Shown piece after piece: positions 7,404-62,307 of a DNA stretch of 64,000 nucleotides. The stretch is from a virus. The position numbers and the translations under genes are program-made. The stretch is taken from the IMG/VR virus record IMGVR_UViG_3300042868_003730, positions 1 to 64,000 of that record; one strand, 5' to 3'. The notes under the pieces are model-generated. The model saw nothing but the letters and a program-made list of their open reading frames with translations. It was not told the origin of the DNA and did not search any database. Within the stretch, counting starts at the first letter, position 1, and the number at the start of each line of letters is the position of its first letter.

Positions 7404-7479
7404 GGAGAATAAGACTCGGTCAGTACGGTGGGACGTGCAGGTGGACAACACATGGACAAGGTTCGAATCCAAACTGAGT

Positions 7480-7790: not shown

Positions 7791-7791
7791 T

Positions 7792-7865
7792 TGGGGATTA
7801 GTTAAATGGTATAACATCGGATTTTGATTCCGAGATCACAAGTTCGATTCTTGTATCCCCTGCCA
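7792..7865 (+). tRNA. tRNA-Gln (TTG)
   Basis: Acceptor TGGGGAT pairs with ATCCCCT except for a U1-U72 end mismatch; weak 1-72 pairing and G73 are normal identity features of tRNA-Gln. Anticodon stem TCGGA/TCCGA holds loop TTTTGAT, anticodon TTG. T-arm ACAAG/CTTGT. CCA is encoded. Confidence 0.92.
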
Positions 7866-18555: not shown

Positions 18556-19497
18556 ATGTTAAGAATTGACGGTAAGAATAATATCTCTTGTACAGTTATT
18601 GCAGATTCAATGACTGCTGGTAGTCGGATGGTAACTATGGAACTGGAATATCCACGATTCATCCACGCAGAGTTGATGACGCATCGGATGTTGAGTAAGA
18701 ATGCCGCTAGTTCAAGAGCAATTCCTATTAAGAAAATGCACGAGACTATTACGGAAAAGACTGCAATGCCAGTACATTGGGGAAAGAATCAACCAGGGAT
18801 GAGTGCCAAAGAAGAAGTAGATGATCTCGTGAAGCTGGGTGCTGAGGGTGTGTGGAATGCAGCCAGGGATTCTATGCTGAGCCATTCCACTGTTATGAGT
18901 GATATGGGACTACACAAGCAGATCGCCAACAGAATCACTGAGCCATTCCAGATGATGAAAACTGTCATCTCTGGAACCGAGTGGGCTAACCTGATCTGGC
19001 TTCGCCATCACGCAGATGCGCAACCAGAGTTCTACGAACTAGCAGATTGTATTGTTAAGTGTCTTAAGCAGTCAGAATCTATGTTGATTGTTTCTGGCGA
19101 ATGGCATACTCCATATGTTCATCGCTTCCGTGATATCGATGGAGTTCTTCAGTATCTGGATTCCAATGGCGAGAAGTTGAGTAAAGAAGATGCAATCAAG
19201 GTATCGTCCAGCTGCTGCGCCCAAGTATCCTACCGTAGGAATGATGATTCGCTGGAGAAAGCCAAGGACATCTTCGCTCGATTGATTGAATCCGAACCAA
19301 TCCATGCATCTCCTATTGAGCATCAGGCGACTCCAATGAAAATCAAGAATGCTGGACTATATTCACAGGATATGAATCCAACCATCTGGGAAGAAGGCAT
19401 TACGCATATGGATCGTGACAAGAACTACTGGTCTGGCAACCTTCGTGGATTCATCCAGCATCGTAAACTTATCAAGTGCGAGGCGAAATGGGGATAA
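18556..19497 (+). CDS. thyX: Flavin-dependent thymidylate synthase ThyX
   Basis: 313 residues, longer than typical bacterial ThyX (about 230). The ThyX motif RHRxxSxNxxSxR is seen as THRMLSKNAASSRA at 42-55 with the first Arg replaced by Thr. FAD-binding and substrate regions (GLHKQIANRITEPFQ, RHHADAQPEF) are present. It methylates dUMP to dTMP with methylene-THF and FAD. Together with dCMP deaminase it supplies dTMP for phage DNA, which later genes may hypermodify. Confidence 0.93.
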   Translation: MLRIDGKNNISCTVIADSMTAGSRMVTMELEYPRFIHAELMTHRMLSKNAASSRAIPIKKMHETITEKTAMPVHWGKNQPGMSAKEEVDDLVKLGAEGVWNAARDSMLSHSTVMSDMGLHKQIANRITEPFQMMKTVISGTEWANLIWLRHHADAQPEFYELADCIVKCLKQSESMLIVSGEWHTPYVHRFRDIDGVLQYLDSNGEKLSKEDAIKVSSSCCAQVSYRRNDDSLEKAKDIFARLIESEPIHASPIEHQATPMKIKNAGLYSQDMNPTIWEEGITHMDRDKNYWSGNLRGFIQHRKLIKCEAKWG

Positions 19498-47771: not shown

Positions 47772-49085
47772 ATGTCACTATGGGGAAATAAAGATACGGC
47801 AGCTGTAACTGGGTTGGTTGGTATCGTTGGAGCAACATACGGAACCACTACTACTGGTACTTCGGTAGCAGCAGCAGCTACTTATAACGTAACACAAAAA
47901 TCAGCTACTGGTGGTGGCACTGGTGGAACATTCACTATCGTTAAGACTGGTTCTGGTACATCATATAGTGGAGCCACTACTATCACTGGCGTTCTTCCAG
48001 TTAATGGTGGATACACTGCAAGCACTGTCGTTACCATTAGCGGTGCGCAACTTGGTGGCGCCGATGGTACGAATGATATGACATTTACTGTCAACACTCT
48101 ACCTACATCAGCTCTAACTGGCGCTGCTGGTACTTTTACTAATGCTGGTACTGCTGTTGCAGTAACACAAACATTCACTGGTTTAACACAAAAATCTGGT
48201 GGCACTACAACTGGAACTGGCGCAGTCTTTTCTGTCGCTCGTACAGGTGGTACAGCATATTCTTCTAATACAGTCGTTACAGTAACGACTCCAGGAACTG
48301 GATATGTTGCTGGTGATACAGTTAAGATTGATGGCGCATTACTTGGTGGCGTGACAGTAACAAATGATTTAACTGTTACAATTACTGCTGCTCCTACTGC
48401 ATTTACGCTTGAATTAAAAGAAGGCAGTTTCGTTGTTATTGCTGGCGTTAAGTATAAGATTCTTAAAATCAACAGCAATATTTCAGCTACTCTGACTAGT
48501 CTTTATGAGGCTGCTACAGTAACTGGTGGAACGATCACTGAGCATCTGGCACCAACTTTCCTTAGTCTAGCTGATGCTCGTAAGGCAGTATTCGTTTCGC
48601 AAGAAGAAGCTCTTCTGGCAACAAATAAAGCCAAGGGAATTAATGGTGCTGGTTGGTGGTTATTCAATGAGTACACTGATGCTGCTGGCAAAATTCGTTA
48701 CAAAACATCATGCCTTGTCGCTATGACTGTTCTTAATGCAGTTTCTGGTGACTCCGCTGCTACTGGTGAAGATCTGATCGCTTCGGATGCTGAGTCTGTT
48801 GTTACTATTGGCACTCAACCTGCTGCGCAGAATACTTCTAGTGGTGCAGCGACCTTCGGCGTTACTGCGTCGGCTACCTCTGGTACTCTGACCTATCAGT
48901 GGCAACGTGCTCTGGCAGCAACACCAACTCGTTTCACCAATATCTCTGGAGCAACTTCGGCTACTCGCGTACTATCTGGTCAGACCTCAGGCAACACCGG
49001 AGATCTATATCGCGTAGTTATTAGTACAGATGCTGGTGCAGCCAAGGTTACTTCTAATGCAGCTGCGTTGACATTCGTGTCTTAA
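47772..49085 (+). CDS. Hoc-like/Ig-domain virion protein (437 aa)
   Basis: MSLWGNKDTAAVTG is a recurrent start of large structural proteins in T4-like environmental phages. The middle has two similar Thr/Gly-rich beta blocks, then a folded domain (DARKAVFVSQEEALLATNK) and a C-terminal Ig-like domain (LTYQWQRA ... SGATSATRVLSG). Decoration or fibre component. AGGAGAC precedes ATG. Confidence 0.75.
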   Translation: MSLWGNKDTAAVTGLVGIVGATYGTTTTGTSVAAAATYNVTQKSATGGGTGGTFTIVKTGSGTSYSGATTITGVLPVNGGYTASTVVTISGAQLGGADGTNDMTFTVNTLPTSALTGAAGTFTNAGTAVAVTQTFTGLTQKSGGTTTGTGAVFSVARTGGTAYSSNTVVTVTTPGTGYVAGDTVKIDGALLGGVTVTNDLTVTITAAPTAFTLELKEGSFVVIAGVKYKILKINSNISATLTSLYEAATVTGGTITEHLAPTFLSLADARKAVFVSQEEALLATNKAKGINGAGWWLFNEYTDAAGKIRYKTSCLVAMTVLNAVSGDSAATGEDLIASDAESVVTIGTQPAAQNTSSGAATFGVTASATSGTLTYQWQRALAATPTRFTNISGATSATRVLSGQTSGNTGDLYRVVISTDAGAAKVTSNAAALTFVS

Positions 49086-49091
49086 TGATCG

Positions 49092-49463
49092 GTGATTAGT
49101 GAGAAGAACTTCTTGCAGCGTGCTCTGCGCTGCTATGATAATCCTCAGTGTATAACTCTGGATGAATTTCAAGAAGATCTGAATCGTTTTTCTCACATCA
49201 AGAAGATCATAACGAAGTACGTAGAAGGACAAGGCGAAATAAACGATCGCCTTGTCCTTAATCATTTGGTTACTTTGTTTAATGTTTTTGGTTTAGAGGC
49301 GTTATTATTTACTTTGTTCAAAGTAGAACAAAAACATTGGGGTGTTATTTTCCCATTTCTTATTCTTCTAAATAAGTTACCAGATTATATTCCTGAGTTA
49401 CAACTGGAAACAGCGGATATAGAACTGGATAAAAACATAATCGAGAAATTAAGGCAAATCTAA
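49092..49463 (+). CDS. Conserved phage protein of unknown function (123 aa)
   Basis: GTG start; no ATG nearby in frame. NFLQRALRCYDNPQCITLDEFQEDLNRF and FNVFGLEALLFTLF recur in T4-like environmental phages next to head and terminase genes (DUF7207 type). Helical. Function unknown. Confidence 0.68.
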   Translation: MISEKNFLQRALRCYDNPQCITLDEFQEDLNRFSHIKKIITKYVEGQGEINDRLVLNHLVTLFNVFGLEALLFTLFKVEQKHWGVIFPFLILLNKLPDYIPELQLETADIELDKNIIEKLRQI

Positions 49464-50222
49464 ATGGCACGCATCGTAGACAATCTAGCAGCTCTTAGAG
49501 TAATTTGGTTGTTGGCCACACCATTCGAAAAGTTCGATGCATTCAAGCTGGGACTAATTGATGCTAATGGTGTTAAACTAAAGAAGGCAGAAACTTCTGA
49601 AGAGAGGAATGCCACCTCTATGTTACACCGCCTCGTCTGGAATCTAAAGCGTATCATCGCATTGGCTCCAGGAGGAAAAACTCGTATTGGTAGTTTAGTT
49701 GCCGCATACCTTCTTGTGAAGGAATCTGCTGAGAATGATTACGATGAGATGCAACTTGAAGAAGAGATTCTAAACAAGTTCCAGATTTATAGAAACATTC
49801 ACTTTATTGAAGAAGAAGTGATTGTAGAAGAAGCATTACTTGCATTATTTGAAGACGCACCCGCGAATGTAACTGGTGCTGCGGTCAGTACTGATATTCC
49901 TGTAGTCAGACCGAAAAATGCAAAAAGAAAGTTCGCCTCGTTTGATGTTGATGACGATACGTTTTCTAAATTCAAAAATGGTAAAGCAAAATTCCGTAAA
50001 TGGAGTTCGTATCTAAATCTTGAAGATGATTCTCACAAAGAGATTCATAAGTATGCCAAGAAGAACCCACGTGGTATTCTAGTTATCAAAGACTCCAAGG
50101 GAAATATGAAGGGTATTCGTTACTCAAGAACTGGCGGTGGGAATTGGCATAATGTAAAAAGGAAATCAACTGTCACTGGGTCAATGCAACAAGAATATTT
50201 AACTGTTGAGCGTATCATATGA
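49464..50222 (+). CDS. Conserved phage protein of unknown function (252 aa)
   Basis: LAALRVIWLLATPFEKFDAFKLGLID ... MLHRLVWNLKRIIALAPGGKTRIGSLVAAYLL is a known helical phage family, possibly a head/scaffold-associated protein. The C-terminal half is basic. ATGA overlap with the i-spanin gene. Confidence 0.7.
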   Translation: MARIVDNLAALRVIWLLATPFEKFDAFKLGLIDANGVKLKKAETSEERNATSMLHRLVWNLKRIIALAPGGKTRIGSLVAAYLLVKESAENDYDEMQLEEEILNKFQIYRNIHFIEEEVIVEEALLALFEDAPANVTGAAVSTDIPVVRPKNAKRKFASFDVDDDTFSKFKNGKAKFRKWSSYLNLEDDSHKEIHKYAKKNPRGILVIKDSKGNMKGIRYSRTGGGNWHNVKRKSTVTGSMQQEYLTVERII

Positions 50223-50704
50223 TCAGAATCTATATAATCTGTGGAATTGTGGCAGCGGCTCTTCTTGGCCTCTACGCTGTATTCTCTTTCGGTAGATCGT
50301 ATGAACGCACAGAATGGGAATTGAAATACGCCGAAGCAGCAGCAGAAATTAAAGAACTAGAATCTAAAGCAGCTGAAGTTAGTAATGTCGTAGTTACTAA
50401 GTATGTTAATAAGATTCAATACGTTGATAAAGTAAAGATCCAGACAGTTACACAATTCGTGTCGAGTGAGTCAGACAAGTCCTGTGTTATAAATAATGGA
50501 TTCGTGAATGTGCATAATGCTGCCGCAGCTGCTAGTGCTATCGTGGCAAGTGATACAGACAAAGACCAGTCTCAGATCAAACTAAGTAATGTTGCTTCTG
50601 TGGTGGTCGATAACTACGCTGAGTGTAATAAAACCAAATTGCAGTTGGAATCACTTCAAGGATGGGTTCGTGACCAACAAACTTTATGGAATACCACTAA
50701 ATGA
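50219..50704 (+). CDS. Rz-like inner-membrane spanin
   Basis: 161 residues: one N-terminal membrane anchor (about 3-22) and a long Ala/Lys/Glu helical periplasmic part, as in i-spanins. It overlaps the o-spanin gene by ATGA. Together they fuse inner and outer membranes at lysis. Confidence 0.85.
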   Translation: MIRIYIICGIVAAALLGLYAVFSFGRSYERTEWELKYAEAAAEIKELESKAAEVSNVVVTKYVNKIQYVDKVKIQTVTQFVSSESDKSCVINNGFVNVHNAAAAASAIVASDTDKDQSQIKLSNVASVVVDNYAECNKTKLQLESLQGWVRDQQTLWNTTK

Positions 50705-50886
50705 AATCTCTGTTTTGTGCTATTTGTCTAGTTCTTTTGGTTGGTTGTGGGGGAACAACAATCCCTGTTATTAAACAAAAGTTTCCTGATCCTCCGGAGT
50801 TACTAATGGCTCCAGTACCTGAACTAAAGAAGTTAGGGGAGACTACTCCAGCTGTAGAACCTAAGAAGTTAGATAAACTCTCATAA
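50701..50886 (+). CDS. Rz1-like outer-membrane lipoprotein spanin
   Basis: 61 residues: signal ending LLVGC (lipobox), then a short Pro-rich mature part (FPDPPELLMAPVPEL), classic for o-spanins. It sits at the 3' end of the i-spanin gene. A reverse-facing promoter begins just downstream. Confidence 0.85.
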   Translation: MKSLFCAICLVLLVGCGGTTIPVIKQKFPDPPELLMAPVPELKKLGETTPAVEPKKLDKLS

Positions 50887-50896
50887 GCACAGTTGA

Positions 50897-50924
50897 ATTA
50901 TACCTGGTAAGAAACAAGTGTAAA
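50897..50924 (-). promoter_or_regulatory. Reverse-facing promoter, copy B
   Basis: Minus-strand TTTACA (50919-50924), 16-nt spacer, TATAAT (50897-50902), then TCAACTG. Flanks match copy A (30059-30086), including the -35 upstream TTTATT. It points into the spanin genes, where only antisense RNA could be made. Confidence 0.6.
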
Positions 50925-50949
50925 ATAAACTTTGCACGATAAACTTTAG

Positions 50950-50978
50950 TTTACTTTTCGTTATGGTGGGGGCATAAT
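50950..50978 (+). promoter_or_regulatory. Promoter for the primase gene (leaderless)
   Basis: TTTACT (50950-50955), 17-nt spacer, CATAAT (50973-50978). ATG 50985 lies at +7, the expected transcription start. Confidence 0.65.
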
Positions 50979-50984
50979 TACACT

Positions 50985-52004
50985 ATGTCCTTACTTTTCA
51001 TTGATCGCAAATTCGCCAGACTCCTCGGAGCAAGGCTTCTTAACTTTAAGGAAAAGAAGCCAGATCTTTTCACGTTCTCCCATACGTGTGAAGATCGCTC
51101 TCACAGTAAAGTCAAGGCACGCGGATACATCTACCGCCAAGAAAACTCCCTCTATGTCAAGTGCCACCATTGTAGTCTGAGCCACAAACTCTCTACATTC
51201 CTACAACAGGAATGCCCTACTCTGGCTGATGAATACCGTCTTGAGATGTATAAAGAGAAGGTTAACTCTGGTCAACTAACTCAAAGAGTTCCTGAGCGGA
51301 AAGAAGTCATCATACCTAAGGTCTCTCTTGACTCGGTTCTGGATGGATTGATAGCACTATCTACATTACCAAAGAGTCATCCTGCTGTTCTTTATGCAAA
51401 GAAAAGAGCAATCCCTGAAGAACACTACAAGAGCATTTTCTTTTGTCCGAAATTCTTTAAGTATGCAGTAAAGTATAAGGATTCCTTTGCGAAAATGAAG
51501 GAAGATTATCCTAGACTGGTCTTCCCTTATTTTGATGCAAATGGTCGTGTGTATGCCCTGACAGCAAGAGCATTCGGTAATGAAGAACCAAAGTATATCT
51601 TTCTATCTATCGATGAACGCAAGGAAAACATTTATGGAATCTGGAGAATTGATGCTAGCAAACCTATTATCGCAGTTGAGGGACAAATTGACAGTCTTTG
51701 TGTCGACAATGCCATTGCAGTGGGTGGAGCCGACTATAATTCTGCTCTTCTTCGGTCTCTTCAGTCTAATCTGATTATTGTTCCGGATAATGACTTCATA
51801 AGAAACAAACAAGTCGCTGATTCAGTTATGAAGGCTATTAAGGCTGGATATTCTGTCTCTCTTTTCCCTGCTTCATTTAGGTATAAAGATATCAATGAAG
51901 CAACGAAGAAGATGACAAAGCAAGAAATTCAAACAATCATTCTAGATAATGTAAAGCGTGGTGCTGAAGCAGAACTAGAACTTATTTTCCGCAGGAAGTG
52001 TTAA
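50985..52004 (+). CDS. DNA primase (T4 Gp61 type)
   Basis: 339 residues. An N-terminal zinc site (C35, H40, C60, C63) precedes a TOPRIM domain with IAVEGQIDSLC and IIVPDNDF metal residues. Synthesises RNA primers with the replicative helicase, which is not in this window. Apparently leaderless (see promoter 50950). Confidence 0.9.
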   Translation: MSLLFIDRKFARLLGARLLNFKEKKPDLFTFSHTCEDRSHSKVKARGYIYRQENSLYVKCHHCSLSHKLSTFLQQECPTLADEYRLEMYKEKVNSGQLTQRVPERKEVIIPKVSLDSVLDGLIALSTLPKSHPAVLYAKKRAIPEEHYKSIFFCPKFFKYAVKYKDSFAKMKEDYPRLVFPYFDANGRVYALTARAFGNEEPKYIFLSIDERKENIYGIWRIDASKPIIAVEGQIDSLCVDNAIAVGGADYNSALLRSLQSNLIIVPDNDFIRNKQVADSVMKAIKAGYSVSLFPASFRYKDINEATKKMTKQEIQTIILDNVKRGAEAELELIFRRKC

Positions 52005-52014
52005 AGGGTATAAT

Positions 52015-52389
52015 ATGAATGTAACTACGTGGGCAAAAGAATATCCATTTATCTCGGATGTATTCGATATGGTTAGTTTTGATCTTATTCGGCTGAGTAA
52101 TGATGAAGATGATATGTTGTATACTATCTTGGTACGCTATGTTATTCTCGATCAGGCACAAGAGAAAGTCACTGGTGGTGTAACTGTTCAGACTGGTATG
52201 TCTGGTTCTACGTTTCTAGAATGCGCAGAGTTGCTTGATCGTCTGGTGAATATTGGATTCTTTAATCAGGCAGTTAGTTCTTATGGTGTGGTTTATTCTG
52301 AAGATATGGAAAAACTCGATGAACTGGATTGGAATAATATCTTGTTGGTCTCTAGTACTTTGATACCAGAACATACAACTATCCAGTGA
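52015..52389 (+). CDS. Hypothetical acidic protein (124 aa)
   Basis: MNVTTWAKEYPFISDVFDMV..., acidic alpha/beta, with no recognised domain. AAAGGGTATAAT precedes it; the run may also act as a ribosome site. Lies between primase and RNR. Confidence 0.65.
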   Translation: MNVTTWAKEYPFISDVFDMVSFDLIRLSNDEDDMLYTILVRYVILDQAQEKVTGGVTVQTGMSGSTFLECAELLDRLVNIGFFNQAVSSYGVVYSEDMEKLDELDWNNILLVSSTLIPEHTTIQ

Positions 52390-52392
52390 GAT

Positions 52393-52400
52393 CTAAATAA
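52393..52400 (+). promoter_or_regulatory. CTAAATAA late-type element
   Basis: CTAAATAA 27 bp before ATG 52428. Here it precedes a non-structural gene, so it is weaker support for a late class. Confidence 0.35.
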
Positions 52401-52427
52401 AAACCCAACCATATTAGGAGATCAAAT

Positions 52428-52778
52428 ATGAACAGAATTGAAATAGGAAATGTCGAAAACATTATGTGTGATGGCGACGCACTTCTCAAATTGTTTAAGA
52501 GTTGTGTTGGAGATAACCTCGGTGATTTTGTTTTTGTTCTTCCAGAAGGTTCTTCTGAGTTGTCAAGAACGATGTTTGATAACTTTATCAATAACATGAA
52601 TTTTGAGTTTAAGCGTGTTTCCAAAGATATTAGAATTCATCGAACAGAAATTAAAGTTCCTGCTCCAGTAGTTGAACCAGTGATTGATGTGATCCCAGAA
52701 GTAGTTCCTGAGCCAGAACCAGAAGTAGTTCCTGAGACAGAAGTAACACCAACGCAAACACCAAAGAGAAAGAGATAA
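52428..52778 (+). CDS. Hypothetical protein with Pro/Glu/Val tail (116 aa)
   Basis: AGGAG precedes ATG. A folded acidic first half is followed by a PVVEPVIDVIPEVVPEPEPE-type repeat and a basic end PKRKR. The low-complexity tail suggests a spacer or protein-binding arm. One base before nrdA. Confidence 0.65.
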   Translation: MNRIEIGNVENIMCDGDALLKLFKSCVGDNLGDFVFVLPEGSSELSRTMFDNFINNMNFEFKRVSKDIRIHRTEIKVPAPVVEPVIDVIPEVVPEPEPEVVPETEVTPTQTPKRKR

Positions 52779-52779
52779 T

Positions 52780-54564
52780 ATGATCATTGACTATAGCCGC
52801 GATTCCCTCTTTGATGTACTGGGATTACGTCGCTTAAAAGATTCTTACATGCGGGAAGATGAGACTTCTCCTCAGGATAGATTCGCATACGTCTCTAAGG
52901 CATTCGGCAGTAATGATGCCCACGCACAGAGACTCTATGATTATTCAAGCAAACATTGGCTTAGTTATTCCACACCAATCCTTTCCTTCGGAAGAAACAA
53001 GAAGGGATTGCCAATCAGCTGCTACTTGAATTACCTCGATGATACTGCAGAGGGATTGGTTGATAATCTGTCTGAAACCAACTGGCTCTCTATGATGGGT
53101 GGTGGCGTTGGTATCCACGTTGGTATTCGTGGGTCAGATGACAAGTCCGTTGGTGTGATGCCTCACTTGAAGGTATATGATGCTAGCTCGCTGGCATTTA
53201 AGCAGGGCACAACTCGTCGTGGTTCTTATGCGGCATATCTGGATATCTCTCACCCAGATATTATTCAATTCCTTGAGATGCGTAAGCCAACTGGTGATCA
53301 GAATATGCGCACTCTGAATTTGAACCACGCTATCAACATCAGTGATAAGTTTATGGATATCATTGAGCGTTGTATGCTTGACCCAGAGACTGATGATCGA
53401 TGGGATCTGGTTCAACCACACAATGGTCGAGTAGTTGAGACTGTTTCGGCAAAAGAACTGTGGATGCGTTTGCTTGAGATTCGTATGCAGACAGGAGAAC
53501 CATATATTTGGTTCAATGATACTGCTAATCGTGCACTACCAGAATATCAAAAGGCTCTTGGCCTAAAGATCAATGGTTCGAATCTTTGCTCAGAGATTGC
53601 ACTTGCTACTTCTGAAGATCGCACGGCAGTTTGCTGCTTGTCCTCAGTGAATCTTGAATACTATGATGATTGGAAAGATGATCCACAGTTCTTGTCAGAT
53701 GTTCTTGAGATGCTTGATAATGTGGTTCAGTACTTTATTCATAATGCACCAGATGAAATTGGTCGTGCTCGTTACTCAGCAATGAGAGAGCGTTCAGTTG
53801 GAGTTGGTGCTCTGGGATTCCATGCCTACCTACAGAAGAACAATATTGCCTTTGAGGGTGTTCTTGCTAAGAGTATGAACAACAAGATGTTCTCGTATAT
53901 TCGTAAGCAACTTGATGCAGCGAATGTTCGTTTGGCAGAGGAACGCGGTTCGTGTCCAGATGCTGAAGAGGCTGGAGTTAAGCAACGTCTGACTCATGTC
54001 ATGGCAGTTGCTCCTAATGCATCTAGTTCAATTATTATGGGTAATACCAGCCCAAGCATTGAGCCATATGCAGCCAATGCTTACAGACAAGATACTTCTT
54101 CCGGTGCATTCATTACCAAGAATCGTTTCCTTGATGCTATTATCAAGAAAGAAGCACAGTCGAGAAAAGATGGTTGGTATGATGAGGTCTGGGCTAATAT
54201 CATTGCTGATGATGGCTCGGTGCAGAATCTAGACTGGATGGATGAGAATACTAAGTATGTATACAAGACTTCCTTTGAGATTGACCAACGTTGGATTATT
54301 GAACACGCAGCTGATCGCCAGAATTATATCGATCAGGCTCAGAGCGTGAATCTATTCTTTAGGCCAGATGTCAACGTGAAGTATCTTCATGCTGTTCACT
54401 TTATGGCATGGAAGCATTCATTGAAGAGTCTTTACTATTGCCGTAGCACTAAGTTGCGCAAGGCAGATAAGGTTGGACAGAAGATTGTTCGCCAAAGAAT
54501 TGAAGAAGACATCGACCTACAACAAGTCGCAGAAGGCAGCAGCTGTCTTGCGTGCGAGGGATAA
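52780..54564 (+). CDS. nrdA: Ribonucleoside-diphosphate reductase alpha subunit NrdA
   Basis: 594 residues; the ATP-cone is absent, so allosteric activity control is reduced. CYLNYLDDT..., NGSNLCSEI, SSVNLE, the radical-path MGNTSPSIEP and RDTSSGAF-type segments, and C-terminal CLAC redox pair. Reduces NDPs to dNDPs with NrdB. Operon with nrdB by one-base spacing. Confidence 0.95.
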   Translation: MIIDYSRDSLFDVLGLRRLKDSYMREDETSPQDRFAYVSKAFGSNDAHAQRLYDYSSKHWLSYSTPILSFGRNKKGLPISCYLNYLDDTAEGLVDNLSETNWLSMMGGGVGIHVGIRGSDDKSVGVMPHLKVYDASSLAFKQGTTRRGSYAAYLDISHPDIIQFLEMRKPTGDQNMRTLNLNHAINISDKFMDIIERCMLDPETDDRWDLVQPHNGRVVETVSAKELWMRLLEIRMQTGEPYIWFNDTANRALPEYQKALGLKINGSNLCSEIALATSEDRTAVCCLSSVNLEYYDDWKDDPQFLSDVLEMLDNVVQYFIHNAPDEIGRARYSAMRERSVGVGALGFHAYLQKNNIAFEGVLAKSMNNKMFSYIRKQLDAANVRLAEERGSCPDAEEAGVKQRLTHVMAVAPNASSSIIMGNTSPSIEPYAANAYRQDTSSGAFITKNRFLDAIIKKEAQSRKDGWYDEVWANIIADDGSVQNLDWMDENTKYVYKTSFEIDQRWIIEHAADRQNYIDQAQSVNLFFRPDVNVKYLHAVHFMAWKHSLKSLYYCRSTKLRKADKVGQKIVRQRIEEDIDLQQVAEGSSCLACEG

Positions 54565-54565
54565 A

Positions 54566-55543
54566 ATGATTAAGAAAACTAAATTAAAACTAACTGACGA
54601 ACGTCAATTCTTCAAGCCATTCTCTTATCCATGGTGCTATGATGCGTTTATGCAATCAGAGCAAATGCATTGGTTGCCTGCAGAGGCTCCGATGTTGGAG
54701 GATGTGAAGGACTGGAAGAATAAGTTAACTGAGAATGAGAAGCGATTCTTGACTCATATCTTCCGATTTTTCACGCAGGGCGACATTGACGTCTCTGGTG
54801 CTTATGTAAAGAACTATCTACCGAACTTCCCTCAGCCAGAAGTTCGAATGATGTTGAGCAGTTTCTGCGCACGTGAGGCGATTCACGTTGCTGCCTATTC
54901 TCACTTGATTGAGACGCTAGGCATGCCAGAAACTACTTACAATGAATTCCTGCAGTATAAAGAGATGCAGGACAAGCACGATTTCATTGCTAGTTTTATT
55001 GAAGAAGACTCCGACACAATTGCTCAACAGATTGCTGTGTTCTCGGCATTTACTGAAGGTCTGCAGTTGTTTAGTTCTTTTGTTATGTTGTTGAACTTTG
55101 CTCGATTCGGTAAGATGAAAGGAATGGGTCAGATCATTGCCTGGTCTATTGCTGATGAATCTCTGCATTGTGAGTCCATGATCAAGTTGTTCCGTGAGTT
55201 TATCAAGGAGAACAAGGATATCTGGAATGATGAATTAAAATCACAAATATATACTGTAGCAGAGAAGATGGTTGAGTTAGAAGATAATTTCATTGACCTG
55301 GCATTTGGGGTTACTGAAATGGAAGGTCTAACTAAAGAAGATGTTAAGCAATATATTCGTTACATTGCTGATCGTCGTCTAATCTCTCTTGGTATGAAGG
55401 GGATTTTCAAAGTAAAGAAGAACCCTCTTCCATGGGTTGATGGCATGCTCGGTACTACTCATACAAATTTCTTTGAGAACAAGAGTACTGATTACGCCAA
55501 GGGTGCATTGACTGGCTCGTGGGAAGATGTCTGGTCAAAATAA
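54566..55543 (+). CDS. nrdB: Ribonucleoside-diphosphate reductase beta subunit NrdB
   Basis: 325 residues from ATG 54566. Diiron residues in CAREAIHVAAYSHL and IADESLHCE. The Tyr four residues after the metal His (HVAAY) matches the radical Tyr122 of E. coli, so class I Tyr-radical chemistry is expected. AAAATG follows the nrdA stop. Confidence 0.95.
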   Translation: MIKKTKLKLTDERQFFKPFSYPWCYDAFMQSEQMHWLPAEAPMLEDVKDWKNKLTENEKRFLTHIFRFFTQGDIDVSGAYVKNYLPNFPQPEVRMMLSSFCAREAIHVAAYSHLIETLGMPETTYNEFLQYKEMQDKHDFIASFIEEDSDTIAQQIAVFSAFTEGLQLFSSFVMLLNFARFGKMKGMGQIIAWSIADESLHCESMIKLFREFIKENKDIWNDELKSQIYTVAEKMVELEDNFIDLAFGVTEMEGLTKEDVKQYIRYIADRRLISLGMKGIFKVKKNPLPWVDGMLGTTHTNFFENKSTDYAKGALTGSWEDVWSK

Positions 55544-55554
55544 GGATAATAACA

Positions 55555-55704
55555 ATGCAGAAGATCAATTTCGAGTGTGAGAGCTGTGATGCGAAGGGAA
55601 CTATCAGATTACCTTCGGAGTGTGATGGTTATAGAATAGAGGTCTGTCCTTGTTGTGCTGGTCCATTAGATATGGACGAGGACTACGAAGATGACGAAGA
55701 ATAA
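55555..55704 (+). CDS. Small zinc-ribbon protein (49 aa)
   Basis: FECESCDAKG ... VCPCCAG gives two CxxC knuckles; acidic DEDYEDDEE tail. AAGGATAATAAC upstream. Possibly a regulator or RNR partner by position. Confidence 0.66.
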   Translation: MQKINFECESCDAKGTIRLPSECDGYRIEVCPCCAGPLDMDEDYEDDEE

Positions 55705-56110
55705 TGGCTGGCATCTACTAGACGGCACTGTTCTCGAAACTCCTCCAACTGACGCAGTAGGGTTTGTTTACCGCATAACTCGGATCTCTGATGGTAAGTT
55801 TTACATCGGTAAAAAGAAACTTACCTTCAAACGATCTAAGATGGTAAAGGGCAAAAGGAAACGATTTACTATCGATTCTGATTGGCTAACCTACTACGGC
55901 AGTTCAGAAGAACTTAAAAATGATGTCAAATCTCTCGGAGAGGATTCGTTTCTCCGAGAGATTCTCCACATGTGTACTACTTTGAGTCAATGTAATTACC
56001 TCGAGACTATGGAGATCTTTAGTAATAGGTGTCTATTACGGGAAGATTGCTACAACTCCTGGGTATCCTGTAAAATTCATAAGAAACACGTCCTTGGAAA
56101 GATGCTTTAA
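55691..56110 (+). CDS. GIY-YIG-like nuclease-fold protein (139 aa)
   Basis: GFVYRITRISDGKFYIGKKKLTF ... YYGSSEELKNDV ... YLETMEIF resembles the GIY-YIG fold (Tyr, Tyr, Glu). No NUMOD repeats. Common beside nrdB in T4-like phages, so it is a resident gene rather than a mobile one. Activity unproven. Confidence 0.72.
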   Translation: MTKNNGWHLLDGTVLETPPTDAVGFVYRITRISDGKFYIGKKKLTFKRSKMVKGKRKRFTIDSDWLTYYGSSEELKNDVKSLGEDSFLREILHMCTTLSQCNYLETMEIFSNRCLLREDCYNSWVSCKIHKKHVLGKML

Positions 56111-56116
56111 GTTTAT

Positions 56117-56145
56117 TTTACATCTATACATATATCAGGCATAAT
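56117..56145 (+). promoter_or_regulatory. Promoter for the DNA-modification operon
   Basis: TTTACA (56117-56122), 17-nt spacer, CATAAT (56140-56145). Leader with GAGGTG before ATG 56172. It is the only clear promoter before the block 56172-61175. Confidence 0.65.
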
Positions 56146-56171
56146 TACTGAATCGTAACCTGAGGTGAAAA

Positions 56172-57524
56172 ATGGTAAGAAAAATTGTAGCAAATGAAGT
56201 TTATGACTCCAAGCATCTGCTGGGGACTTTCCTTGATGAATCTAATTACGATATTCTAATTGAGGAAGATTGTGATGTTTATGCACCTGCTGGATGCGAT
56301 CTAGCAACAACAGTTGATTGTAAGCCGCAATCTGATTGCGCAGAATGCCCTAAAGGTATTTCCGAAGATAGGGTTGCTTTCAAATTCCGAAAGAACTACT
56401 TCAGCAAGGAACAGCAACAAGCAGCCTATGAAGGTCTGCGTGCTGCAGCAACTCCGACTAATAATCGTGGTACAGCAGCGGGTACTGTTCGCGTCGGTAA
56501 GGCAGGTAATCGTGAGTGGGTCACGGAATACCAGGAAGCAGTAATCAAATACTTTGCTAAACCTTATACCACTATTACTGGTGAAGATCCGCTCGAAGAA
56601 CTATTTGCTAGGAAAGAGCAGATGGCTGAACCTGGTACCATAAACACAGTATGGAGAACAGGTGCTCCGATTGTGTTTGAAGAGTGGGTCGAAGCAACCA
56701 GAAAACTACCAGCAGAAAAACAAAAGTTAGCAGCGAAAAATATCCTTGAGGATAACATCTCAGCTACTACCTACGCCAATGAAGTGCTTAGTGGAATTGC
56801 TGGTGCTTTCGGAAGAACTCCCCGAGTTCCATTCGGTCGTCTTGCTGCATACAATGAGCGCAATCCAGATATGTTTGAAAGAGGTGTGCCATTCCTGCAG
56901 ACACTTGATCGGGCATTTTCTGAACTTATGCCAGAACGCCACGGAGCGCAAAAGAACTTTGTTGATTCATTGGATGAACATTTCCGAATCGCAGATACGG
57001 TGTTCACCACACTGACTATCAATAAGACGTTCCGTACTGCTGCTCACCTTGACGCAGGTGATTATGGCCCAGGATTCTCTAATCTTCTTGTTCTTTCAAA
57101 CGATGGTGATTTCACTGGTGGTTACTTGATTCTTCCTGAGTTTAGGATTGCAGTTAATGTTCGACCTGGCGATCTGTTGCTGATTGCAAACCATACTGCG
57201 ATTCACGGAAACACTCCGATCGTTCTTGGCTCAGAAGCCAGTGAGCGTATCTCCATTGTTGCTTACGCTCGTGAAGATCTTAAGTCACTTGGTACTTGGG
57301 ACTATGAACAGACTCGAAAGAGATACGTTGACAGTTGCAGGGATAATAAAGACCACCCGCACTGGTGGGATCGTTTCACTGGGGTATGGGCAGGAATGTG
57401 GCAATCCAAAGAATGGTATGATTATTTGGTAGCTGCATTGGGTGAAGATGAGGCTCGTGCTAATGACCCAGCTATTTTTGAGATCCACAATAATGGATCA
57501 GTTGGTCTTGAGTCCTTCTTCTGA
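56172..57524 (+). CDS. TET/JBP-like 2-oxoglutarate/Fe(II) DNA dioxygenase
   Basis: 450 residues. The C-terminal double-stranded beta-helix has FRTAAHLDAGDYGPGFS (H292, D294), GGYLILPEF, RPGDLLLIANHTAIHGNTP (H345) and ERISIVAYARE (R359 for 2-oxoglutarate), the set of the TET/JBP family. N-terminal 70 residues contain a Cys cluster (34, 42, 50, 56, 59). JBPs hydroxylate thymine and TETs 5-methylcytosine; no C5 methylase is seen here, so thymine is the likelier substrate. First gene of the hypermodification operon. Confidence 0.85.
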   Translation: MVRKIVANEVYDSKHLLGTFLDESNYDILIEEDCDVYAPAGCDLATTVDCKPQSDCAECPKGISEDRVAFKFRKNYFSKEQQQAAYEGLRAAATPTNNRGTAAGTVRVGKAGNREWVTEYQEAVIKYFAKPYTTITGEDPLEELFARKEQMAEPGTINTVWRTGAPIVFEEWVEATRKLPAEKQKLAAKNILEDNISATTYANEVLSGIAGAFGRTPRVPFGRLAAYNERNPDMFERGVPFLQTLDRAFSELMPERHGAQKNFVDSLDEHFRIADTVFTTLTINKTFRTAAHLDAGDYGPGFSNLLVLSNDGDFTGGYLILPEFRIAVNVRPGDLLLIANHTAIHGNTPIVLGSEASERISIVAYAREDLKSLGTWDYEQTRKRYVDSCRDNKDHPHWWDRFTGVWAGMWQSKEWYDYLVAALGEDEARANDPAIFEIHNNGSVGLESFF

Positions 57525-58204
57525 TGTGTGCAGTTATTGGCGCAACAATTAAGAATCCAAGTAGCGCAGATTTTCAAACACTGAAAAGAGTATTCCACGA
57601 ATCCCGCATTCGTGGAATGCACGCTACTGGATTATCATACGTCAAGAACAATAAAATCCACACAAACAAACTTCCAGTATCTGCTGATAAGTTTCCCTTT
57701 GATTGGGATGATTATGTCAATGAAGATGGCAATCTTTATTTGGTGGGTCACTGTCGTTACTCAACTTCAGACCTGCAATATAATCAACCCATTAACAATG
57801 ATACTATATCAGTAGTTCATAATGGTGTGGTGACACAAGAGTCACCAGAGAGCTGGAAAGATAATTATGGTTATGACTGCGTAACAAAGAATGATACTGA
57901 GTTGATCCTTAAATCATTAGAGGCAGATGAATCTCCTCTTGAGCACTGGTCAGAATCATCTCTGGCTGTTTGTGAACTATGGAATGATAAGAAGATTCGG
58001 TTCTACCGAAATGGAAAGCGACCAATTTATTTTACTTCAGTCGATCGCGGAACTATAATTACTTCTACGCGAGATATTGCTATTCGCTCTGGTTTAACTA
58101 ATACCACTGAACTTCCGTATAATACATACGCCACAATTAAGAGTGATGGACTAATTATGGAACAAGTAAGTGTAAACAATAAAGACTTACAGCATACACT
58201 ATGA
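57524..58204 (+). CDS. Class II glutamine amidotransferase
   Basis: 226 residues with an N-terminal Cys nucleophile (MCAVIG), GHCRYST (G75-H76, R78) and VHNGVV (H99-N100-G101), all Ntn-amidotransferase motifs. It releases ammonia from glutamine, presumably for the amidoligase that overlaps it by ATGA. TGATG overlap with the dioxygenase. Confidence 0.88.
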   Translation: MCAVIGATIKNPSSADFQTLKRVFHESRIRGMHATGLSYVKNNKIHTNKLPVSADKFPFDWDDYVNEDGNLYLVGHCRYSTSDLQYNQPINNDTISVVHNGVVTQESPESWKDNYGYDCVTKNDTELILKSLEADESPLEHWSESSLAVCELWNDKKIRFYRNGKRPIYFTSVDRGTIITSTRDIAIRSGLTNTTELPYNTYATIKSDGLIMEQVSVNNKDLQHTL

Positions 58205-59079
58205 CAAAATACAATCCCAGTAACTTTACGTATGGTATGGAAATAGAGTGGGGTGATGTTCCTCGCTCTTTTGCGATTCCGGATAACCTTGGGTCGTGGG
58301 AATATTCTGAACGGGATATTATAAACCTAAGAGAACCATATCAATATGTCTGCGCTGATCCTCTTGGTGAGACACCACCAGTAGGAGGTGAGATCAACAC
58401 AAAGCCAACTAAAACTTGGCAAGAGCAGGTTGCTCGATACTTTGAGTTGAAAGAATTGTTTGAGTCAAATGGATCTTCTCCTACAGTTGGTGTAACTGCT
58501 CATACGCACATTCACTGTCGTGTTCCTGGGTTGAAGGATGATATCAATGCTCTAAAGTCTTTGACGAAATATATCAAAGAAAATCAGGCAGCAGCTATTG
58601 ATCGAATCTATGGGTTCTACGAACATAATCAGATGAAGGGTGCTAAGGGTGCCAAGATGTATTTGAAGTTCGATGGTGGTCGCCCAATGCCAGATTATAT
58701 GAGCGATAACATTATCAGCAAGGCAACTGACTTCGATTCATTCATCAAGATGCACGCTGCTGGTAAAGATGGTGTATCAATGGGTAGGCCATTTAGATTT
58801 GCCATCAATATGTATGCATTGAAGCATATTGACACAGTAGAGTTTAGGTTGTTCCGTGGTACATTTGACAGAAACCAACTTGAGTCTTGTTTCCGTTTTG
58901 TTCAAGACTTTCTTGATGCTGCGTTGAACGATGGTCCAACTGTTGATGAGTTGTTCTCAAACAATAATTACAATTTCCCTCCAATGATGTGGGATCTAAA
59001 TCAATTCATTGGTTGGGAGAAAACTAAACACCCAGAAGATCGTGGTAAGAAAGTAAGGACATTCGTTGAAGTTATCTAA
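58201..59079 (+). CDS. Amidoligase-family (COOH-NH2 ligase) protein
   Basis: 292 residues. YGMEIEWGD (11-19), VGGEINTKP (61-69), HTHIH (101-105) and TVEFRLFRGTFD are the Glu, Gly-Glu and Arg/Phe motifs of the glutamine synthetase-like amidoligase fold. These ligate amines to carboxylates with ATP. Next to amidotransferase, GNAT and DNA transferase it may build an amide on the modified base. Confidence 0.82.
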   Translation: MTKYNPSNFTYGMEIEWGDVPRSFAIPDNLGSWEYSERDIINLREPYQYVCADPLGETPPVGGEINTKPTKTWQEQVARYFELKELFESNGSSPTVGVTAHTHIHCRVPGLKDDINALKSLTKYIKENQAAAIDRIYGFYEHNQMKGAKGAKMYLKFDGGRPMPDYMSDNIISKATDFDSFIKMHAAGKDGVSMGRPFRFAINMYALKHIDTVEFRLFRGTFDRNQLESCFRFVQDFLDAALNDGPTVDELFSNNNYNFPPMMWDLNQFIGWEKTKHPEDRGKKVRTFVEVI

Positions 59080-59623
59080 ATGCACACGAGATAAATTTAT
59101 CTCAAGTATTAGCACAGCGAAAGAAGATAATTTTGCTCGCACATTTGTCGCTAAGGCAGATATGCAAGAACAGTGGGATTATTGTCTCGGGTTGTTTGAT
59201 AATACAGGAGATCTTATGGCAGCAATCATTACCACAATCTCCAAAAGGAAACCATTCGTAGCCAACCTTCAATTGTTGCATACATTCGCTAAGCATAGAG
59301 GGCAGGGTGCAGCTAGGTTGCTTTGTGAGCAATCTTTACTGAATGTAAAGAATCACGGAGCTGAGTATTTCCGAGTTTCTTCTGAGATCAATGCTGTTGC
59401 ATTCTATGAGAAGATAGGTTTCAAGTTTTGGGGAAAACAAAAGAGTGGTTGCCAACTTTCGATATTCCGAATTGATGGCGGCACATTCGCTGAGGGTGAT
59501 TATGATTATTATGATTCAATGATCCATAACGCAATCCATAAAAAAGGTAAGGGTGGGTGCGTTGAACTATTTGATATTGCAAAGAATAAAGACAATGGTC
59601 TTCAAGAGTTATTCTCAGCATGA
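59066..59623 (+). CDS. GNAT-family acetyltransferase
   Basis: 185 residues. Acetyl-CoA loop HRGQGAARLLCEQ and NAVAFYEKIGFKFWG are GNAT signatures; a C-terminal extension of about 45 residues is acidic/aromatic then basic. Overlaps the amidoligase by 14 bp. Possibly acetylates the side group of the modified base (inference). Confidence 0.85.
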   Translation: MKLSKCTRDKFISSISTAKEDNFARTFVAKADMQEQWDYCLGLFDNTGDLMAAIITTISKRKPFVANLQLLHTFAKHRGQGAARLLCEQSLLNVKNHGAEYFRVSSEINAVAFYEKIGFKFWGKQKSGCQLSIFRIDGGTFAEGDYDYYDSMIHNAIHKKGKGGCVELFDIAKNKDNGLQELFSA

Positions 59624-60633
59624 ATCATAAAGAACTTCCAAGAGAATCATTTATTCGTTGGTATGCCTGGTCATTAAAATATAATGATTGTGACCCAGCT
59701 GTGTGGGCAACAAATTATCTAAACAAAAGATTCGAGCATAACTCTGAACAGAAACTGTGGCTCGCGTGGTTATACGGAAACACCTATCATCTGCCTACTG
59801 CTTGGGTTCTAATGAATGAGTTTCCTGATTTTGAATTAGCAACAGTTGACCGAACTACTCAATGGAATACTGCTAACTATAAAAGATTACGTTATCAGAC
59901 AGATACAAAATGGAACAAAGGACATCTACCAGTGATGTTCAAATCCTATCAAGAATTTATAGGTGAAGGAAGTCAACATGACCGTATTGAATCATACTAT
60001 GCTGGAAATGCGAAAGAAAATTTTGATTCTTTGTGGAATGTACTTAAAGGAAACCTTCATAAGTTTGGTCGTTATTCTACTTGGTTTTATATGCAGCATC
60101 TCAAACATACTGCTAGTGTTAATGTCGAGCCTACTTCTCTCATGTTGGATGATTATGATGGTTCCCGTTCTCATCGTAATGGGTTACTTATGGCCATCGG
60201 CAGGAATAACGATTATGATAGGAAACTTAGTACAGCGGAGTATCGAGACCTTGAGTCTATTAGCATTGGAATTATCGATGAGATGAGGGATAGGTTTCCG
60301 GAGTTAAAAGATCAGATTGATTTCTTTACAATGGAAACCTGTCTGTGCTCATTTAAGAAAATCTTCAGAGAACACCATGGTCGTTATCTTGGTTACTACT
60401 TAGATCGGCAGGCTGAAGAGATTATGCAATGCGAGAAAGATGGCTGGCATGGTATTGACTGGGAAGTTCTTTGGCAAGCAAGGAATGAAACAATTGATTC
60501 GCGATTGAACAATAAGAGAGGTATTATCAAAGAAAAGTTTACTTCTTTTGTTAGAGAAGGTAAGATTGATAATCTCGAGTGGATGTTCGATGATGAAGAA
60601 TGTAGTAATGTTAGTTTGGAGAAATTCTTATGA
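59620..60633 (+). CDS. Amino acid:DNA transferase-like (ADDT/aGPT-PPlase) protein
   Basis: 337 residues. RWYAWSLKYNDCDPAVW, NSEQKLWLAWLYGNTYHLPTAWV, NYKRLRYQTDTKWNKGHLPV, DDYDGSRSHRNGLLMAIG and HGRYLGYYLDRQAEEI match the phage family predicted to transfer amino acids or amines onto phosphorylated 5-hydroxymethyl pyrimidines. ATGA overlaps with GNAT and the kinase. The family assignment is from pattern memory and is fairly sure; the reaction in this phage is inferred. Confidence 0.78.
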   Translation: MNHKELPRESFIRWYAWSLKYNDCDPAVWATNYLNKRFEHNSEQKLWLAWLYGNTYHLPTAWVLMNEFPDFELATVDRTTQWNTANYKRLRYQTDTKWNKGHLPVMFKSYQEFIGEGSQHDRIESYYAGNAKENFDSLWNVLKGNLHKFGRYSTWFYMQHLKHTASVNVEPTSLMLDDYDGSRSHRNGLLMAIGRNNDYDRKLSTAEYRDLESISIGIIDEMRDRFPELKDQIDFFTMETCLCSFKKIFREHHGRYLGYYLDRQAEEIMQCEKDGWHGIDWEVLWQARNETIDSRLNNKRGIIKEKFTSFVREGKIDNLEWMFDDEECSNVSLEKFL

Positions 60634-61175
60634 GAAAAATCGTAGCAGTTGGTGGTCAACCAGGAACAGGTAAAACTACTCTATTCCGTAAATTTATGGA
60701 AGATAAAACCTGGGAGAAGGTTGAGCCAAAGAAAATGCTTCCTGCTCTTTACTGCAAGGAACTTGATCTTTATGTTCTGGGTAAGTATGAAGAGGGTGAG
60801 ACGTTTGCTGGTACTGACCGATTAAGTATGGCTGTGCAGCCAATCGCTCAGTGTTTTGTTACTGAGACTAAATCGAATGTCTTGTTTGAAGGTGATCGAA
60901 TCTTTAATCAGTCCTTTCTGGAATTCGCTATGGCTCTTCCGGAAGTTGATCTTCAGGTTATCTATCTTAAGGTTTCGCCAGAAACCCTGACTCAACGATA
61001 CGCCGATAGAGGATCAGATCAGTCAGAGACTTTCCTAAAGGGAAGAGCCACTAAATATAATAACATACTTTCAAATTTTGAATTGATGCCCTATATTAAT
61101 GAGTTCGTGAACACTACATTAGAAGATCAATTGAAAGTTATCAAATTTATGGAAAATCATTTAATAGGTAAATAA
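60630..61175 (+). CDS. P-loop kinase, 5-hydroxymethyluracil-DNA kinase-like
   Basis: 181 residues. Walker A GQPGTGKTT (9-17) and LFEGDRIFN (84-92) resemble the P-loop domain of phage 5-hmdU DNA kinases that activate the base for substitution. The protein lacks a fused helical domain, so the transferase-like partner upstream may supply it. ATGA overlap with that gene. A simple nucleotide kinase is the alternative. Confidence 0.7.
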   Translation: MRKIVAVGGQPGTGKTTLFRKFMEDKTWEKVEPKKMLPALYCKELDLYVLGKYEEGETFAGTDRLSMAVQPIAQCFVTETKSNVLFEGDRIFNQSFLEFAMALPEVDLQVIYLKVSPETLTQRYADRGSDQSETFLKGRATKYNNILSNFELMPYINEFVNTTLEDQLKVIKFMENHLIGK

Positions 61176-62267
61176 ATGCTTTCGCTAAAACAATATATAT
61201 CCGAGACAGAAAATAAAATGGCAGCATCTATCAAAAAGAAATTACTGACTCCGTCAAAGTTTGGCTTAAACACAATGAAGCCCATGACTTCGAGTCAAAT
61301 AGTGACTGTTGCCAGAAAGAGATTAATGTCGTTGGATATATCAGATGATGCTAAAAAATTATGTAATTATATAATTGATCAATCCATTGCTGGTAAAGAT
61401 AGTTTCCCTGCAAAATTTAGTGGTGTTTCTAATGAAGATCTTGGTGTTATAACTTCTGACTTCGGTGAGGTTGCTGGCGCCATTTACATGCTAAACTCCA
61501 AAATGGGTTACACTCATGCTAGATTTCCAATTGGAGAGAATGAGCGTCTCGTAGATTACTATCTTGTTAGGGATGGTATTGATGAGAAGATTTCTGCTAA
61601 AGCAGGTCAGGGTGGTGCACCTGCTCTTACTGCTGTAGAGAAAGCATTAGGAGATATTGACACCAAAATACTAAACGATACACAAAAGAAAGCATTAAGT
61701 GTCTTGGACTTTATCAATAAGGGTACTGTTTACGGTGGTGTTCTTGAAGCAGCTAAATTTCTTAAGATGCCTGGGTATAAGGCATTGATATCGATCTTGT
61801 CCAGAAAAGATTTGAAGACTGGTTATAATGCACCAAACATCCCTGACCAACAAGATCTTATCAGAGCTGTTGACGCATGCGGAACTTTTGACTCTTGCAT
61901 GAGTGAGTTCAAGCCTCTGTTCACTGCTGCCAATTTTGTATTAGGTGGTGAGGGTAAGATGAGATCTGTTTTTGATGGAAGCGCAGGATCTAGATATAAG
62001 AAATGGGGCATCCTACACTTTCCAGTTACTAGTGAAGTTATGGGGTGGTTAAATGATCCCGACAATGAAGCAAGAAATTTGTTGACCATGGCTGCTAGAA
62101 CTCTGACAGTTAGTCAGGTTTATTTTGACTATAAATCGAACAATTTTTCATATACAACGAAAACCTTTTCTGACGCTGACTTCAAATTCCATTCTCCGTC
62201 AAGTACACCAAACCCAGTGGGAAACAGAATTGGCATGAAAATGATCAAATCGCCGAAGAAAGAATAA
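61176..62267 (+). CDS. PD-(D/E)XK-like protein with capsid-targeting-like leader (363 aa)
   Basis: MLSLKQYISE-TENKM fits the T4 leader/cleavage pattern. Glu98 in DFGEVAGA, Asp127 in LVDYYLV and Lys142 in ISAK could be a variant PD-(D/E)XK nuclease core. The C-terminal half is unknown. If correct, it is a nuclease packaged in the head and injected. It lies between the modification operon and early genes. Confidence 0.6.
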   Translation: MLSLKQYISETENKMAASIKKKLLTPSKFGLNTMKPMTSSQIVTVARKRLMSLDISDDAKKLCNYIIDQSIAGKDSFPAKFSGVSNEDLGVITSDFGEVAGAIYMLNSKMGYTHARFPIGENERLVDYYLVRDGIDEKISAKAGQGGAPALTAVEKALGDIDTKILNDTQKKALSVLDFINKGTVYGGVLEAAKFLKMPGYKALISILSRKDLKTGYNAPNIPDQQDLIRAVDACGTFDSCMSEFKPLFTAANFVLGGEGKMRSVFDGSAGSRYKKWGILHFPVTSEVMGWLNDPDNEARNLLTMAARTLTVSQVYFDYKSNNFSYTTKTFSDADFKFHSPSSTPNPVGNRIGMKMIKSPKKE

Positions 62268-62307
62268 TTTACTTTTATTCAATTTCGCGGTATAATAACT
62301 TATTGAA
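62268..62307 (+). promoter_or_regulatory. Early promoter cassette 10
   Basis: TTTACT (62268), 17-nt spacer, TATAAT (62291), then CTTATTGAAG. Dyad degraded. Drives 62326. Confidence 0.83.

Follow-up and report, generated by a model that had tools for sequence, protein, structure and literature searches.

A compact operon that probably hypermodifies thymine in phage DNA was analyzed in IMG/VR record IMGVR_UViG_3300042868_003730, which comes from an uncultured tailed phage. The full record is 147.9 kb; the window, meaning the whole stretch analyzed here, is its positions 1-64,000. Six open reading frames (ORFs) on the plus strand were found at 56172-61175, and they encode, in this order, a TET dioxygenase, a class II glutamine amidotransferase (GAT), an amidoligase (AL), a GNAT acetyltransferase, an amino acid:DNA transferase (ADDT), and a kinase. 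The operon and its upstream signal are listed below.

56117..56145, plus strand: promoter-like site TTTACA-17-CATAAT, 26 nt 5' of the TET start, consensus match only
56172..57524, plus strand: TET/JBP-type 2-oxoglutarate (2OG)-Fe(II) dioxygenase, 450 aa; PF12851, E 1e-20
57524..58204, plus strand: stand-alone class II (Ntn) glutamine amidotransferase domain, 226 aa; Pfam GATase_6, E 3.6e-8
58201..59079, plus strand: glutamine synthetase (GS)-fold carboxylate-amine ligase (amidoligase), 292 aa; accepted from motifs and a structure model
59066..59623, plus strand: GNAT N-acetyltransferase, 185 aa, TTG start; Pfam Acetyltransf_10, E 9.6e-11
59620..60633, plus strand: ADDT-family transferase of the GAT-associated clade, 337 aa; PF18724, E 1.2e-23
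60630..61175, plus strand: P-loop kinase, predicted 5-hydroxymethyluracil-DNA kinase, 181 aa; PF18751 (Ploopntkinase3), E 5.9e-9

The genes overlap head to tail by 1 nt (TET/GAT), 4 nt (GAT/AL), 14 nt (AL/GNAT), 4 nt (GNAT/ADDT), and 4 nt (ADDT/kinase), and the TTG of GNAT is the sole unusual start codon. The promoter-like site is likely the operon promoter, judging from its match to the consensus, and an AGGTG ribosome-binding-like site immediately precedes the TET ATG. The overlapping six-gene arrangement and all six family names had been proposed in a preliminary description of this DNA, and both were borne out. Five of the six proteins exceeded their Pfam cut-offs; AL fell short and was placed by motifs and model.

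The TET protein scored 74 bits against Tet_JBP, for which the cut-off is 34.9. Its residues H292, D294, H345, and R359 (HxD...H...R) lie exactly where the preliminary description put them and were invariant across five divergent relatives. A profile of TET relatives aligned with human TET2 in both active-site halves. The ADDT reached 84.5 bits against a cut-off of 26.2, so that the profile searches kept both the dioxygenase and the transferase in the families first claimed for them. The ADDT residues present family-wide were all found (W47, G53, D95, K100, G150, R151, S184, N187, G188, E239, C243, and K246). No relative of the GAT-type ADDT was found in bacterial genome contigs. The kinase scored 36.2 bits against a cut-off of 27, and its P-loop, which had been described as intact, reads GGQPGTGKT. 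Kinase relatives are present in phages Cr30 and Melnitz and in Mycobacterium phages, including JAMaL gp4. From these family memberships, TET is predicted to be a thymine 5-methyl hydroxylase acting on DNA, and the kinase is predicted to phosphorylate 5-hydroxymethyluracil in DNA.

The remaining three proteins form the middle of the operon. In GAT, the glutaminase-site residues Cys2, R78, N100-G101, and D124 were invariant in relatives, and the full-length relatives examined start with MC at the N-terminus, in agreement with the intact Ntn-type cysteine that had been noted. GAT is described here as a predicted ammonia source. AL scored 13.4 bits against Pfam Amidoligase_2 (PF12224), below the 22-bit cut-off, and 2 of 22 members matched this profile at E <= 0.01. 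A genome-wide search with the Pfam amidoligase profile matched no control genome, and its negative result was discounted. AL carries the conserved amidoligase-like pattern GxExE/GGExNT/HxH/RxxxN/TxEFR. Its structure model, redone with a deeper alignment after a first version with pLDDT 74.5, reached pLDDT 91.4 and pTM 0.90. All 50 of the 50 best PDB matches to this model were ligases of the GS, GCS/GshF, YbdK, GmaS, and PafA types, with a best E of 2e-3 and none at E 0.001. On the motif set and the confident model, AL is accepted as a GS-fold carboxylate-amine ligase. Sequence searches of the PDB with the AL profile, ADDT, kinase, and GAT returned nothing useful. A distant AL relative is also encoded in Vibrio phage 2.275.O (L092) at 7896-9008, directly 5' of 7-deazaguanine biosynthesis genes, a class known for phage DNA modification (PMC6884629).

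The base on which TET would act was considered from the enzymes that accompany it. The 147.9 kb record had no match to C5-cytosine methyltransferase (PF00145) or to the ThyA fold (PF00303), which covers the hydroxymethylases of both deoxyuridine monophosphate (dUMP) and deoxycytidine monophosphate (dCMP); a hydroxymethylase or methyltransferase elsewhere in the phage record was rejected on this ground. Neither enzyme was found in eight related IMG/VR records with the block, nor in ten more that encode relatives of this TET, mostly with other cassettes. The searches matched their positive controls (Melnitz-3 for the methyltransferase and Cr30 for ThyA, plus 9-10 control genomes). ThyX is encoded by the phage's own record and by all eight relatives tested. 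The ThyX-like protein at window 18556-19497 (313 aa) is divergent, with a weak match of 7.6e-7, unlike the canonical ThyX of the relatives. The absence of C5-methyltransferase and ThyA-fold enzymes from this and 18 related records makes thymine already in DNA the likely and most economical TET substrate, as for JBP. The 'pyrimidine' of the preliminary description is thus narrowed to thymine with fair confidence.

The competing substrate is 5-methylcytosine, to which we assign a small probability. Characterised phage TETs oxidise this base, according to Burke et al. 2021 as cited in PMC12730594, and in Methylophilales phage Melnitz-3 a divergent TET adjoins a C5-methyltransferase in a C5-methyltransferase-TET-kinase arrangement. 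For the TET group of the window phage, no C5-methyltransferase was found in the own or the 18 related records, and thymine is always available.

The preliminary description had suggested looking for the same block in related phages, and its gene order was found to recur in hundreds of contigs; chance or mis-called ORFs were ruled out by this conservation. IMG/VR contained relatives of AL at 258 loci, of TET at no fewer than 566, and of ADDT at 272. In 80 AL-seeded loci, GNAT was present in 78, GAT in 76, TET in 73, ADDT in 68, and the kinase in 55, where short contigs account for some of the missing genes (gaps were checked in part). The order among relatives is TET-GAT-AL-GNAT-(optional nuclease-like gene)-ADDT-(optional gene of about 140 aa)-kinase. 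The protein of 430-500 aa between GNAT and ADDT in many relatives appears GIY/HNH-ParB-like by eye and has no Pfam match. Variant operons (L049 and L054; L018, L029, and L037) contain an extra B12-type radical S-adenosylmethionine protein or one to two 2OG-Fe(II) oxygenases, insertions that fit a tailoring pathway, as expected.

The distribution of GAT follows that of the ADDT. In an ADDT tree of 48 rows with GAT and 10 without (rows of unknown state were omitted), the GAT label needs a single change, and the GAT-associated ADDTs form one clade. Inside this clade, 8 changes are required for AL and 7 each for GNAT and for a second type of GNAT (GNAT2). When GAT is mapped on the TET tree, 15 changes are required, near the shuffled-label mean of 18. 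At ADDT position 278, Gly was found in all 48 GAT-positive members and Glu in 8 of the 10 other ADDTs. The lock of GAT to one ADDT clade suggests that the donor used by the GAT-clade ADDT may differ from an amino acid. A second sample, seeded with the ADDT, comprised 36 loci whose upstream sequence was 5 kb or longer, on contigs partly shared with the first sample. Both TET and GAT were present in all 36, and three middle modules were seen: AL+GNAT (19 loci), GNAT2 (12), and AL with a low-molecular-weight phosphatase (5). Each module places at least one amine-acylating enzyme after GAT. AL was not found in two long GNAT2-type records of 170 and 162 kb. Since GAT tracks the ADDT while the acylating enzymes vary, the glutaminase activity appears to belong with the transferase.

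In untruncated loci of the group, GAT never occurs without the ADDT, and the kinase and ADDT are always retained with GAT. This retention implies a hydroxymethyl intermediate, and it speaks against a route in which TET oxidises the methyl group to the carboxylate, GAT and AL amidate it to a 5-carbamoyl pyrimidine, and the kinase and ADDT serve another branch. TET enzymes can produce 5-carboxyl bases, and GAT with a GS-fold ligase would make a suitable carboxylate-amidation pair; the route is nevertheless judged very improbable.

The families, residues, operon structure, conservation, cassette exchange (below), and GAT-ADDT lock were read from the sequence, and from them we infer the following chemical steps, substrate, product, and protective role. 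TET would hydroxylate thymine in phage DNA at its 5-methyl group, yielding 5-hydroxymethyluracil, whose hydroxyl the kinase would phosphorylate. The ADDT-family transferase would then displace the phosphate and form a new bond to the 5-methylene carbon. Ammonia would be freed from glutamine by GAT, and AL (with ATP) and GNAT (with acyl-CoA) would build amide bonds on the appended group to give a bulky base. The bulky base would probably shield phage DNA from host nucleases, by analogy with phages M6 and ViI (PMC6449724). A post-replicative thymine hypermodification operon, with TET, kinase, ADDT, GAT, and AL/GNAT as its core chemistry, is our probable assignment. The DNA-hypermodification idea of the preliminary description is strongly supported by the TET-ADDT-kinase core of known phages and by a glycosyltransferase cassette swap at the locus.

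The order of the tailoring steps can be stated only tentatively. The GAT-ADDT clade, the presence of GAT in 36 of 36 loci, and the variable middle module favor the use of GAT ammonia at the transferase step. In this order, which is given somewhat under an even chance, ammonia would be the ADDT nucleophile and yield 5-aminomethyl-deoxyuridine (dU), AL would add a carboxylic or amino acid to this amine, and GNAT would cap the new amine. The amide-forming enzymes of all three modules would then have a sensible substrate, with the phosphatase of the third module left over.

Several points weigh against the proposed pathway. Known ADDTs, in the work of Lee and colleagues of 2018 and 2022, reportedly use amino acids and not ammonia. 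The GAT-ADDT lock could partly reflect inheritance as a block. Most of the related records are fragments, which makes the enzyme absences strong but incomplete proof, and host-made 5-methylcytosine is a possible source of substrate. GAT and an amidoligase also occur in LUZ24-like Pseudomonas phages, so the pair may serve otherwise.

The amino acid use that is said to be shared by all characterised ADDTs favors a different order, in which the ADDT attaches an amino acid, GAT and AL amidate its carboxylate, and GNAT acetylates the remaining amine. GAT and AL are adjacent with a 4-base overlap, and the AL fold is that of ammonia-using ligases, both of which agree with such a partnership. However, 12 of the 36 full ADDT-seeded loci have GAT with the other GNAT and no AL, which leaves GAT partnerless, and AL is absent elsewhere in the two long GNAT2-type records. 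Acetylation of an N-alkylated amino acid would also be awkward unless a second amine exists. The constancy of GAT in every full ADDT locus, with AL often absent, fits a GAT that serves the transfer step better than one serving AL alone. The amino acid-first order, which was that of the preliminary description (amino acid, amidation, acetylation), is therefore not established, and we regard it as rather unlikely.

GAT, AL, and GNAT might instead act on a soluble metabolite, a peptide, or the cell envelope and be merely co-transcribed with the core. The proximity of GAT to an amidoligase in LUZ24-like Pseudomonas phages points in this direction, as does the cell-wall or superinfection function proposed for the phiEco32 amidoligase/GATase (work cited in PMC10580990). 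Against it, GAT is never without the ADDT in untruncated loci and tracks the ADDT phylogeny, and the amidoligase relative of the Vibrio phage adjoins 7-deazaguanine genes. Such a separate role is considered improbable.

The post-replicative thymine pathway was further supported by an exchange of genes behind TET. Window 48531-57520 aligns continuously with contig locus L143 at 83% (blastn). The match ends at 57520, no more than 4 bases from the TET stop; 4.7 kb further along the window, at 62268, the alignment picks up again (86%). The features of this exchange are listed below.

57521..62267, no strand: exchanged segment, in the window GAT-AL-GNAT-ADDT-kinase-orphan
61176..62267, plus strand: orphan ORF, 363 aa, with its first base directly following the kinase stop
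62268..62303, plus strand: promoter element TTTACT-17-TATAAT with a ribosome-binding-like site, at the right-hand exchange junction
12874, 19894, 20147, 23829, 26691, 30758, 31079, 32739, 62268, and 62695 (window positions): copies of the promoter element

In place of 57521..62267, L143-L145 carry genes for a TET-associated glycosyltransferase (TAGT; PF20691, 8e-11), a HAD phosphatase, and a nucleotidyltransferase, and in L146 the TET gene is likewise followed by this set. TET stays while the tailoring genes are swapped for the glycosyltransferase set. Of the contextual evidence, this is the strongest indication that TET may make a shared hydroxymethyl platform in DNA for differing tailoring sets. 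Neither a C5-methyltransferase nor ThyA was found in the L143 and L145 records. L143-L146 are candidates for a phage pathway to glycosylated, base J-like hydroxymethyluracil. The full combination, in which ammonia-fed ADDT, AL, and GNAT would build a peptide-like base and the TET locus of the sister phages would feed a glycosyltransferase as a base J counterpart, is unlikely as a whole.

The six genes stand as the operon, and the exchangeable unit runs further, to 62267, and includes the orphan ORF. The orphan had no Pfam, PHROG, or NCBIfam match; distant copies lie behind other TET cassettes, and it is not in the near relative L012. At least 10 near-identical promoter/ribosome-binding-like copies (TTTACTTTTATTCA...GGTATAATAACTTATCGAA...) are present in the window. 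The copy at the 62268 junction resembles the promoter/stem-loop elements of T4-like phages, which are reported to mediate gene shuffling in work cited in PMC4503421.

The operon was compared with known systems. In Mycobacterium phage JAMaL (Cooper relatives), members of the TET, ADDT, and kinase families are arranged in the order seen here, and Rhodococcus phage Tonitrus has a module annotated as thymine hypermodification, whose genes include a TET-like one, aGPT-Pplase2, and a 5-hmU kinase (PMC11955845). The TET, ADDT, and kinase combination is thus no novelty in itself, with this core already in JAMaL and a similar one in Tonitrus. The genes listed for these modules, unlike those of the window operon, include neither a GAT nor an amidoligase or GNAT, and the core proteins in the window are only 24-27% identical to their JAMaL-type counterparts. 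The ParB-like protein of the JAMaL ParB-TET-ADDT-kinase module had no blastp match in the genome studied here.

M6/YuA and ViI (Ackermannviridae), with 5-NedU and 5-NeOmdU, share an ADDT-family protein with the window (SFP10); Ackermannviridae are known for 5-NeOmdU (PMC11721090). In the M6/ViI route, 5-hydroxymethyluracil is an intermediate and a 5hmdU DNA kinase takes part (PMC6449724). In these phages a dUMP hydroxymethylase makes 5hmdU before replication (Lydia/Yuavirus), whereas the window phage has TET and no ThyA-fold gene. In the C5-methyltransferase-TET-glycosyltransferase cytosine system, a phage TET starts the pathway as it would here, and a TAGT cassette occupies this locus in close relatives; the window phage differs by its ADDT/kinase route, and no C5-methyltransferase was found in its group. 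The 5-acetylaminomethyl-dU pathway of PaMx11 reportedly draws its amine from glycine and a flavin lyase (Lee and colleagues, 2022). An acetyltransferase acting on a 5-aminomethyl-dU-type amine would match the GNAT/GNAT2 step, while the amine in the window phage would possibly come straight from glutamine ammonia. In LUZ24-like UFV-P2, an amidoligase and a class II GATase lie close together in the early region. In contrast to the window, an HNH gene separates them, the GATase is longer (486 aa), and an ATP-grasp enzyme, not TET or ADDT, is among the neighbors listed, although no search was aimed at TET or ADDT there.

Three things are apparently new, with priority uncertain: the module of GAT, amidoligase, and GNAT, the tie between this module and a single ADDT clade, and the swap of cassettes. 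If the proposed pathway is true, phages hypermodify thymine by oxidising it in DNA, like trypanosome JBP, besides incorporating 5-hydroxymethyl-dUMP, and amide-forming chemistry by a glutaminase and a GS-fold ligase joins the known DNA-tailoring enzymes. Hundreds of environmental phage contigs are concerned, and the swap of tailoring cassettes behind an unchanged TET offers a natural matched operon set for discovering DNA bases.

Other features of the phage and its relatives were recorded. A SegE-type GIY-YIG homing endonuclease gene at window 55691-56110 sits between nrdB and the operon. The closest matches of NrdA include NrdA of an Alcaligenes phage. A permuted tmRNA of betaproteobacterial type, with the tag ANDSVYDVALAA, lies at window 7444-7804 among about a dozen tRNA genes, and our guess is a betaproteobacterial host. 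The TET-ADDT operons of L001 (Cr30), L190, L199, and L203 include a myo-inositol-1-phosphate synthase gene, a hint of an inositol-containing DNA modification in these phages.

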